Shown here: in pieces, positions 44,846 to 46,615 of the stretch
Layout of the letters: every line of letters begins with the position of its first letter
How positions within the stretch are numbered: position 1 is the first letter of the stretch
Assembly: GCA_002600635.1 (NCBI GenBank)
Contig: CP021371.1
Coordinates: 1,677,001-1,741,000, forward strand
Source of the DNA: Rhizobium sp. ACO-34A
GTDB taxonomy: Bacteria; Pseudomonadota; Alphaproteobacteria; Rhizobiales; Rhizobiaceae
Length of the DNA: 64,000 nt
Direction of reading: 5' to 3'
The notes under the pieces: model-generated
The model's input: only the letters and a program-made list of their open reading frames with translations
Told to the model about the DNA's origin: nothing
Database searches by the model: none
Program-made: the position numbers and the translations under genes

Positions 44846-45175
44846 ATGATTACCTGTGTCATCCGCTACGAGATCGATCCCTTCGCCAAGGAGGAATTCG
44901 CCACCTATGCCCGCAACTGGGGCGAGGCCATTCCGCGCTGCGGAGCCGATCTCGTCGGATACTTCGCCCCGCATGAGGGCTCCTCGACCACCGCCTATGG
45001 CATCTACCACCTGGAGAGCCTTGCGGAATACGAAGCCTATCGAGCCCGGCTGGCCGAGGATCCCCTTGGGCGGGAAAACTACCAGTTCGCCGCGCGCGAA
45101 AAATTCATCATCCGCGAGGATCGCCTGTTCCTGAAATGCGTGTCCACGCCTCATGCCGCGAGGGCGGTGCGGTGA
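44846..45175 (+). CDS. NIPSNAP family protein
   Basis: A 109-residue dimeric alpha-beta barrel protein starting ITCVIRYEIDPFAKEEFATYARNW and including GEAIPRCGADLVGYFAPHEGSST, IYHLESLAEYEAYRARL and FIIREDRLFLKC. AAGGAG 7 bp upstream sets the ATG at 44846. The biochemical role of bacterial NIPSNAP proteins is unclear. It overlaps the next gene, a related fold, by 4 bp. Confidence 0.9.
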   Translation: MITCVIRYEIDPFAKEEFATYARNWGEAIPRCGADLVGYFAPHEGSSTTAYGIYHLESLAEYEAYRARLAEDPLGRENYQFAAREKFIIREDRLFLKCVSTPHAARAVR

Positions 45176-45522
45176 TCGCCGTGATTTTCGAGGTCGTGCC
45201 TCGCTCCGGCGCGCGTGACGCCTATCTCGATATCGCAGCGGAATTGAAGCCAAGGCTGGAGGATGTCGATGGCTTCCTTTCCATCGAGCGTTTCGAGAGC
45301 CTGTCCATGCCGGGAAAGATCCTGTCTCTATCCTTCTGGCGGGACGAAGAGGCGGTGGCGCGCTGGCGCAATCTTCCCGAACATCGCGCCGCCCAGCGGG
45401 CTGGAAGGGAAGGCGTCTTTGCCGACTATCGGCTTCGGGTCGCGCATGTCCTGCGTGACTACGGTCTCGACCGGCGCGACGAGGCGCCGGCGGACAGCAG
45501 GGCAATCCATTCCGCATCGTGA
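45172..45522 (+). CDS. antibiotic biosynthesis monooxygenase-like protein
   Basis: A 116-residue protein of the ABM dimeric alpha-beta barrel fold: VIFEVVPRSGARDAYLDIA, LEDVDGFLSIERFESL and ILSLSFWRDEEAVARWRNLPEH. Such proteins include quinone-forming monooxygenases and heme-degrading relatives. A GTG at 45172 overlaps the NIPSNAP stop (GTGA); an ATG at 45136 would give a longer overlap. The two genes form a small operon opposite an ArsR-like regulator, suggesting that they handle the compound it senses. Confidence 0.85.
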   Translation: MIAVIFEVVPRSGARDAYLDIAAELKPRLEDVDGFLSIERFESLSMPGKILSLSFWRDEEAVARWRNLPEHRAAQRAGREGVFADYRLRVAHVLRDYGLDRRDEAPADSRAIHSAS

Positions 45523-45523
45523 T

Positions 45524-45792
45524 CTAGGGTCAAAACTCAATCAGGATAGGCGTTCTGCGCGTCGCATCTTGGGTCTGAGTAGGAGGAAAGGTGCAGGAAA
45601 TGCGGATCATTTTCAAACTTTTACGACGCACGCAGGCCCAAGATGCGACGCGCCCGAAGGGTTGGTCCGGATGGGCCGCCTGATCGCAAACAATGCTCGG
45701 CAAGGCCACCCGGCCTTACCTTGCGCTTGTTCGCTTCCATGCAATCCCATCCGGACCAACAGAACACCTATCCTGATTGAGTTTTGACCCTA
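45524..45792. mobile_element. MITE-like element with long inverted ends and two inner hairpins
   Basis: Ends are perfect 24-bp inverted repeats (45527-45550 and 45767-45790), extending to 31 bp with one mismatch (45527-45557 and 45760-45790). Both ends are flanked by TA within a YTAR-like site: CTA on the left and TAA on the right, resembling the 2-3 bp target duplication of IS427-type IS5 elements. Two further stems fill the inside: 45557-45577 with 45633-45653 (21 bp, one G-T pair) and 45661-45675 with 45746-45760 (15 bp, perfect). The folded strand would be a three-way junction. No reading frame of a transposase is present. The insertion starts one base after the monooxygenase stop. Confidence 0.8.
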
Positions 45793-45897
45793 AAGCATGC
45801 CGCGCAAAAGTGTGCAGCGGTTTTGCGATAACGGCATGCGAAAAATCAAAGACTTAAAGCGTGGGGGCGAATCTGAAAGATCGCGACGCGCTTTAGG
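45791..45897. repeat. rhizobial intergenic palindromic repeat (RIME-like)
   Basis: Two neighbouring palindromes: GCATGCCG (45795-45802) with CGGCATGC (45832-45839), carrying an inner CGCAAAA/TTTTGCG pair (45803-45809, 45821-45827), and TAAAGCG (45855-45861) with CGCTTTA (45889-45895). The sequence type is one I have met often between genes in rhizobial genomes. It abuts the MITE-like element. Confidence 0.65.
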
Positions 45898-45927
45898 CAC
45901 CCGGCTTGCCTCGACAAGCCGGGTGCC
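45896..45927. repeat. perfect 13-bp hairpin before bioR
   Basis: GGCACCCGGCTTG (45896-45908) pairs with 45915-45927 around CCTCGA and ends 7 bp before the bioR start codon. There is no T run, so it is not a standard terminator; it may belong to the repeat block or affect bioR translation. Confidence 0.65.
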
Positions 45928-45934
45928 GCCGACT

Positions 45935-46615
45935 ATGCATGTCCGCATGCAGAAAGATCAGGACGATACGATTGCGAGCCGCATCAGTCGGGCCCTTGCC
46001 GAGCGCATCATTCATGGTGAACTCGTGCCGGGCTCCCGTCTCGCCCAGGACCACATTGCCGAGGAATTCGGTGCGAGCCATGTGCCTGTGCGCGAAGCCT
46101 TCCGTCGTCTCGAAGCGCAGGGCCTCGTCATCAGCCTGCCGCGCCGTGGCGTGCGTGTCGCCTCCTTCGACCTGAAGCAGGTCCGCGAGGTGGCGGAAAT
46201 GCGGGCGGCTCTCGAGGTTCTCGCTCTCAGGCATGCCGTGCCCAACATGACGCCGGATGTGCTTGATGCCGCCGAGCAGGCGGCGAGCGACGCCGATGCC
46301 GCGAGGGATGTGCAGACCTGGGAAGAGGCGAACCGCCGCTTCCATAGGCTGATCGTTTCCACCTGCGACATGCCGCGTCTGCTCGCGGTCATAGACGACC
46401 TGCATGCAGTCAGCGCCCGTTTTCTCTTCATCGCCTGGCGGGCGGGCTGGGAAGCCCGCACCGACCATGACCATCGAGCCATCCTTTCCGCGCTCCGTCA
46501 GGGCAGAGCATCGGATGCTTGCGCCATTCTCGAACGGCATGTGCAGTGGATCGGCCGCGCGCCCATGCCGAAGGCCGGTGCCCGCGAGGACGAAGGCTTC
46601 GCCATCGTTGGCTAA
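45935..46615 (+). CDS. bioR: biotin repressor BioR (GntR family)
   Basis: A 226-residue FadR-type GntR regulator. The N-terminal winged helix has ISRALAERIIHGELVPGSRL and FGASHVPVREAFRRLEAQGLV; the C-terminal FCD domain (about 90-215) has EMRAALEVLALRHA, EANRRFHRLIVSTCDMP and DHDHRAILSALRQG with metal-type His residues. BioR in alphaproteobacteria binds TTATMKATAA and represses biotin synthesis and uptake genes; two such sites lie between this gene and bioY, which supports the name. Start is ATG at 45935 (or 45947). No ribosome site is visible. Confidence 0.9.
   Translation: MHVRMQKDQDDTIASRISRALAERIIHGELVPGSRLAQDHIAEEFGASHVPVREAFRRLEAQGLVISLPRRGVRVASFDLKQVREVAEMRAALEVLALRHAVPNMTPDVLDAAEQAASDADAARDVQTWEEANRRFHRLIVSTCDMPRLLAVIDDLHAVSARFLFIAWRAGWEARTDHDHRAILSALRQGRASDACAILERHVQWIGRAPMPKAGAREDEGFAIVG

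Follow-up and report, generated by a model that had tools for sequence, protein, structure and literature searches.

A mobile element upstream of a BioR-like regulator gene in Rhizobium sp. ACO-34A holds an inverted pair of hairpins with compensated stems

The closest described counterparts of the element reported here are the MITEs of IS5-family (IS427-like) insertion sequences (ISs). Like the element, these are short and gene-less, share their ends with ISs, duplicate TA at YTAR targets, occur in several copies and are matched by empty sites; the element differs in its interior, which is apparently no remnant of an IS but an inverted pair of structured hairpins, kept from order to order and enclosed by several different terminal repeats. 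The accessible text of a 2024 review of prokaryotic MITEs mentions stable transcript structures, names no conserved core and does not contain the string "covar" (PMC10969869). REPINs and REP elements with RAYT transposases resemble the element in being non-autonomous, intergenic, inverted pairs of hairpins, whereas the hairpins of the element are much longer, contain an internal loop and are enclosed by IS-type terminal repeats. A RAYT/REPIN identity was rejected because the Y1 (RAYT) transposase profile PF01797 has 0 matches in this genome, while 5 of 14 control genomes do match. CGTC-tagged REP dimers come from the same class, Alphaproteobacteria, and share with the element a GCGTC hairpin foot (the reverse complement of GACGC) and heads that face each other; some are reported to lie within longer palindromes (PMC3733652). 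In the accessible part of that description, their stems measure 8–9 bp and almost always start with A/T pairs, loops are 4–5 nt, and the tail is mostly CCA. In the element, the stem mostly starts with G/C pairs, an internal loop leads on to a second stem, and the tail is CTCCT, so that its hairpins lack the stem, loop and tail features described and membership was rejected. Finally, RIME1 and other rhizobial intergenic repeats are likewise palindromic and occur in the same genomes, and one of them adjoins the copy studied here, but RIME1 is a shorter repeat of another kind, which at this site was inserted earlier. The part of the source available lists RIMEs, Sm-repeats and AB/C motifs as rhizobial repeats of unknown function (PMC2573895). 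Within the texts accessible to our literature search, no description of the element was found.

The window, that is, the whole 64,000-nucleotide stretch of contig CP021371.1 that was analysed, contains an intergenic gap between the stop codon of an antibiotic biosynthesis monooxygenase (ABM) domain gene (45522) and the start of a GntR/FCD regulator gene (45937), which is followed by a BioY gene. The sequence TTATAGATAA at about 46619 is a putative BioR box. The gap measures 414 nt in the window and about 43 nt in genome G020, as read from the aligned loci. It had been described in the first-pass annotation as a palindrome mosaic at 45524–45927, and an inverted-repeat search found the same outer 31-bp stem (45527–45557/45760–45790), which forms part of a longer repeat with 85% complementarity (45510–45557/45760–45807), the inner stems (45557–45580/45630–45653 and 45661–45675/45746–45760) and a 13-bp hairpin (45896–45908/45915–45927). 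Folding of 45510–45940 gave z = -18.1 on the plus strand and -14.1 on the minus strand, with 0 of 100 shuffles as good on either strand, and no terminator-like or promoter-like sites were found across 45400–46000. The palindromes are real, but they belong to three unrelated things: a mobile element, a RIME1-like repeat and a native hairpin. The features of the locus are as follows.

45136–45522, plus strand: upstream gene, ABM domain protein (open reading frame; Pfam PF03992, 5.6e-17).
45525–45526, no strand: left copy of the target duplication, TA, in the target C-TA-A (empty site in G019).
45527–45790, no strand: non-autonomous mobile element, 264 bp (six full copies in the genome, copies in relatives, empty site).
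45527–45557, plus strand: left terminal inverted repeat, the 5' arm of the outer stem (ends common to the ISs L315 and L320).
45557–45653, plus strand: hairpin A, outer arms 45557–45580 and 45630–45653 (inverted repeats, covariation, folding).
45581–45629, plus strand: core of hairpin A, AGGA-stem-GTGCAG-stem-loop-CAAA-stem-GACGC (sequence, motif).
45653–45661, no strand: centre mini-hairpin, CCC-GAA-GGG (sequence and alignment pairs).
45661–45760, minus strand: hairpin B, outer arms 45661–45675 and 45746–45760, reverse-complement counterpart of A (inverted repeats, folding).
45682–45738, minus strand: core of hairpin B, read on this strand (sequence, motif).
45760–45790, minus strand: right terminal inverted repeat, the 3' arm of the outer stem (sequence and inverted-repeat search).
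45791–45792, no strand: right copy of the target duplication, TA (empty site in G019).
45790–45896, no strand: RIME1-like repeat, an older insertion outside the element; it overlaps the right TA (recurs in genomes of the genus).
45896–45927, no strand: native hairpin of 13 bp that precedes the regulator gene, outside the element (similar hairpin in G019, G020 and G001).
45937–46615, plus strand: downstream gene, GntR/FCD regulator, BioR-like (open reading frame and Pfam; adjoins the BioY gene).

The left TA lies 2 bases beyond the stop codon of the ABM gene. In G019, a genome of the same genus, the locus aligns at 95% identity and window positions 44846–45526 are joined directly to 45790–46612, so that GTGATC-TA-AAGCATG in G019 corresponds to GTGATC-TA-[264 bp]-TA-AAGCATG in the window. 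The insertion of positions 45527–45790 was thus clean and duplicated the 2 bp TA, and the TA noted earlier at both ends in a C-TA-A context is the duplicated target. No open reading frame of at least 80 amino acids lies wholly within the 264 bp, and the element therefore has no transposase gene of its own. The genome holds six full copies and several fragments, and further copies were found in relatives, in line with the non-autonomous element that had been proposed. The other five full copies are also matched by empty sites, in that G019 or G020 matches their joined flanks without interruption; we read four of the five junctions, one with TA and three gapless but with AA, CG or TC in the place of TA. 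Among 34 listed copies with the end sequence of the window copy (32 distinct sites, two of which appear twice), the base 5' of TA was C or T in all 34 rows and the base 3' was A or G in 33, which gives the target YTAR. Five of the 32 distinct sites adjoin a RIME1-like repeat, one of them at a distance of 6 bases; ISs that target REP repeats are known, including in Sinorhizobium, from the accessible part of the source (PMC1525189).

A match to the element was found in 12 of 63 genomes of the genus, with the window's genome counted, and among the matches listed for these 63 genomes the element sits at the junction of the ABM gene and bioR only in the window's genome. The 18-base end sequence, at up to 2 mismatches, has 64 matches in G069, where the control gave 0 (control over the 63 genomes, 2). 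Gene orientation around copies was tandem at 39, divergent at 25 and convergent at 19 of the 83 sites scored out of 99, counts that were discarded because the ORF picker misread the window locus; for the same reason, no preference of copies for gene ends was established. Overall, the reading of 45527–45790 as a mobile element is firm.

Several variant arrangements were seen. Two equally oriented copies in G185 (L104, 502–768 and 3746–4012), about 3.2 kb apart, flank ordinary genes in the manner of a composite mobile unit. Shortened elements, in which one hairpin core is gone or the two ends stand alone, occur at L127, L134, L138, L224, L073 (37 bp between the ends) and L037 (71 bp). L314 (G026, C41) is a 492-bp structure between two ends that resembles two partly overlapping copies; it contains an N and may be an assembly effect.

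The sequence to the right of the element has a separate history. What had been annotated as a two-palindrome repeat at 45795–45895 is indeed a repeat, with corrected limits of 45790–45896; it matches sequences in many genomes of the genus and is a putative RIME1, here called RIME1-like. It is present at the G019 empty site and missing in G020 and G001, and its presence at the empty site makes it older than the 264-bp insertion, which agrees with the earlier suggestion that the element landed beside an older rhizobial repeat. The GGCTTGCCTCGACAAGCC hairpin that follows is kept in G020 and G001, both of which lack either insertion, and it is therefore native. The RIME1-like region (45783–45940) gave sub-threshold matches to the Brucella sRNAs BASRCI27 (25.3 bits) and BASRCI408 (22.0 bits), which hints that these entries may contain a repeat of the RIME1-like kind.

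Autonomous ISs with ends of this type, as the first-pass annotation had anticipated, were found in the same genus: L315 (G019, 842 bp) and L320 (G069, 846 bp) begin with TAGGGTCGAAACTCAATCA and TAGGGTCAAAACCCAATCA, and their ends match those of the element. Both frames of each match the profile IS5_3 (125.5, 129.5, 130.2 and 154.1 bits; cut-off 110) as well as DUF4096 and DDE_Tnp_1, and their interiors, as judged by reading, consist of transposase frames throughout with no element-like hairpins. The earlier proposal of an IS427-type insertion into YTAR thus stands as to the target and the IS5-family ISs with like ends, while the profile gives IS5_3; we use the label IS427-like on the strength of the two-frame layout, the size and the YTAR target. 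In other families of the order, the element ends are TAGGGTCAGGACYCATTAAT, a pattern present in 29 of 249 genomes (0 in a backward-read control), and the ISs L081 (849 bp) and L097 (843 bp) have ends that match the element there and give the same profiles, their first frames scoring 99 and 101 bits, slightly below the IS5_3 cut-off. A third likeness, judged by eye, joins the ends of element L130 to those of L305, an IS in the window's own genome. Because no IS with the ends of the window copy was found in this genome, we infer the mover from relatives, and a transposase of ISs with similar ends probably moves the element in trans. Among the IS5_3 copies of this genome, L305 and L306 have ends that differ from those of the element, and L307, L308 and L312 showed no clear ends. 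L305 (C1) and L306 (C2) are IS5_3 elements with two frames, about 870 bp long, whose ends are of the TAGGCTG type, and no gene-less elements with such ends were found in this genome.

The ends vary widely by lineage (TAGGGTCA..., TAGGGTACGGACYCATAAATGAAG in Roseibium, ATACCA..., TAGAGC... and CTAAGAACGTGTTTACG). The Roseibium loci, among L154–L233, comprise many copies with an end sequence of their own and nearly symmetric cores, and they offer a good system in which to search for the cognate IS and to date copies.

Inside these changing ends, one widely conserved motif occurs twice as an inverted pair, a feature that the first-pass annotation had missed. Element length was measured for 81 matches, 68 of which passed a length filter and were used for motif comparison; the 13 dropped included full elements whose ends were overrun in the measurement (L001 of the window, L104, L135), shortened elements, and L156, with guessed coordinates. 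The 68 elements span 261–274 bp, with 22 of them at 268 bp, and share one motif of about 50 nt, AGGA-stem-GCGCAG-stem-loop-CAAG-stem-GACGC, which is read from hairpin A on one strand and from hairpin B on the opposite one. Of the two, B is the less regular, especially in the genus of the window, where its foot is AGC/GAT. The unpaired letters AGGA, GCGCAG, CAAG and GACGC are mostly kept while the stems change in compensated pairs, and in an alignment of 84 trimmed hairpins only one column reaches at least 90% identity. The centre triloop is GAA in 35 of the 81 elements and TTC in 9.

To describe the fold, we aligned 18 diverse interiors, which gave 65 pairs, 40 of them changed on both sides. 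Paired cells made up 94.0%, compared with 80.0% after shuffling, and double-change cells numbered 172, compared with 54.5; 0 of 500 shuffles reached either value, although the 18 rows are kin and the structure was derived from the same rows, so that the shuffle count is no probability. When partners were slid along the core alignment, pairing was at most 49.3%. One G-U pair is kept in 16 of the 18 copies. A conserved small open reading frame in hairpin A (AGGAGG...ATG, in the window's own genus) was considered and rejected, since its ATG lies in a compensating stem and is lost in other lineages. Rfam had 0 matches in the window at the gathering score and only sub-threshold ones at 45400–46050; a search of six other loci (E up to 0.5) returned a single sub-threshold match, which lies outside the element. 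According to the first-pass annotation, compensatory change would speak for a native structured RNA and against a mobile element, a choice that proves false: the element moves and shows strong compensatory change, and is both mobile and structured.

A covariance model of the core (R1), whose E-values are rough, finds the core in 21 of 385 genomes of the class (E up to 0.01) and in 20 of 398 genomes of the phylum (E up to 0.001), with the window's genome counted in each; most genomes searched with R1 gave no match. Across Alphaproteobacteria the core lies inside several different terminal repeats. Five of the 20 genomes from the phylum search fall outside Alphaproteobacteria, three at E no greater than 4.9e-10 and two weak (E 4.0e-6, and 8.4e-5 over part of R1), and the two out-of-class loci that were read, L331 (275 bp) and L335 (277 bp), are bounded by terminal repeats. 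A plasmid collection gave one distant match to the element. The R1 matches L143 and L150 were rejected as elements, as they look like coding DNA or chance and are without terminal repeats, and two Lachnospiraceae records and one Terrisporobacter record, without an R1 match, were taken as chance. From these sequence comparisons, it appears well supported that a paired, structured core is widely conserved inside changing ends. Elements of this size seldom keep a fold across distantly related bacteria, which suggests that the hairpins have some role.

R1 matches both strands over at least 200 bp in 36 elements (hand count, 129 matches in 72 loci), as in L193, with 75 and 60 bits. Since the complement of a hairpin is itself a hairpin, part of this is expected, and the shared unpaired letters weigh more. 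When each arm of the 18 aligned copies was folded on both strands, A was stabler on the plus strand in 16 of 18 and B on the minus strand in 17 of 18. Correspondingly, G-T/A-C cells, each counted on the consensus found for that strand, were 53/12 on plus and 22/29 on minus for A, and 67/2 on minus and 44/25 on plus for B. In the modelled folds, each hairpin is thus shaped as a single strand running inwards from the end on which it lies, and such strand-specific folding fits an RNA function indifferent to the direction of insertion.

The best explanation, which we regard as reasonably probable, is an element of the MITE kind whose mirrored hairpins work as RNA on incoming transcripts. Mobility of the MITE kind is shown by the IS5_3-like ends, the YTAR target with TA duplication, and absence from the same site in relatives. 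A transposase from ISs with similar ends would supply movement in trans. Given the mirror layout, a transcript from either side would meet a sense-strand hairpin first, whatever the direction of insertion, and this first hairpin may then protect or process the transcript, perhaps by leaving the gene before it with a stable 3' end. Insertions near genes would thereby be tolerated, and the element would persist. That the hairpins work as RNA is the step about which we are least certain. An influence of the insertion on bioR expression, as the first-pass annotation had proposed, is conceivable.

The main rival supposes the same mobile element with hairpins that act as DNA, extruded or single-stranded and bound by a transposase or host protein, so as to aid transposition or replication in the way of REP/IS200-type hairpins. 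Single-stranded DNA would give much the same strand bias, the two ends are mirror-symmetric, and GNA triloops, of which the frequent GAA at the centre is an example, are very stable in DNA. Nevertheless, we consider it unlikely, because wobbles are retained in the helices, as in the G-U pair noted above, and a G-T pair in a DNA helix is costlier than G-U in RNA. Moreover, IS5-type transposases act on double-stranded ends, the same-ended ISs consist, on reading, of transposase frames without such hairpins, and a Y1 transposase is lacking in this genome.

An ordinary MITE with a non-working core, in which template-switch correction of quasi-palindromes keeps the arms complementary and recent spread accounts for the likeness between lineages, is disfavoured, and we hold it to be quite improbable. 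Long palindromes are known to undergo such correction. In the element L006 (1502–1768; C1:2790544–2790810 of the window's genome), hairpin B has turned into a perfect palindrome, apparently a natural quasi-palindrome repair by template switching, so that symmetric repair does act on the element's arms. However, correction would wipe out the conserved internal loops and wobble pairs, which other lineages keep; stems diverge far while loops stay; and terminal repeats that differ wholly between lineages are left unexplained by recent spread of one element. Repair-driven symmetry explains neither the kept loops nor the strand bias. A structured leader RNA native to bioR, for which the position directly upstream of the regulator gene and the covariation could speak, is refuted by the empty sites, as G019, G020 and G001 lack the block at this locus and its copies lie at unrelated loci with target duplication; the same block at every bioR locus, which the first-pass annotation would have taken as a sign of native RNA, was not seen among the matches listed for the 63 genomes of the genus, where only the window's genome has it.

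Returning to the element with hairpins that work as RNA, a broader proposal can be put forward tentatively, as possible rather than probable: an undescribed sort of mobile element that passes on a structured nucleic-acid module instead of a gene, namely the inverted hairpin pair, which is old enough to span classes of Pseudomonadota, adopts the IS5-type ends of its hosts, and survives by acting on transcripts from either side. Small gene-less elements are usually seen as short-lived IS debris. Selection on the core itself is indicated by its near-constant size, by compensated change in its fold and by unpaired letters that stay mostly fixed from order to order, inside varied ends. If this is true, the element would be a testable case of persistence through a nucleic-acid fold, R1 would serve as a search model for repeats of a family that genome projects must have come across and left unnamed, and how MITEs manage to outlast their parent ISs could be studied by experiment.
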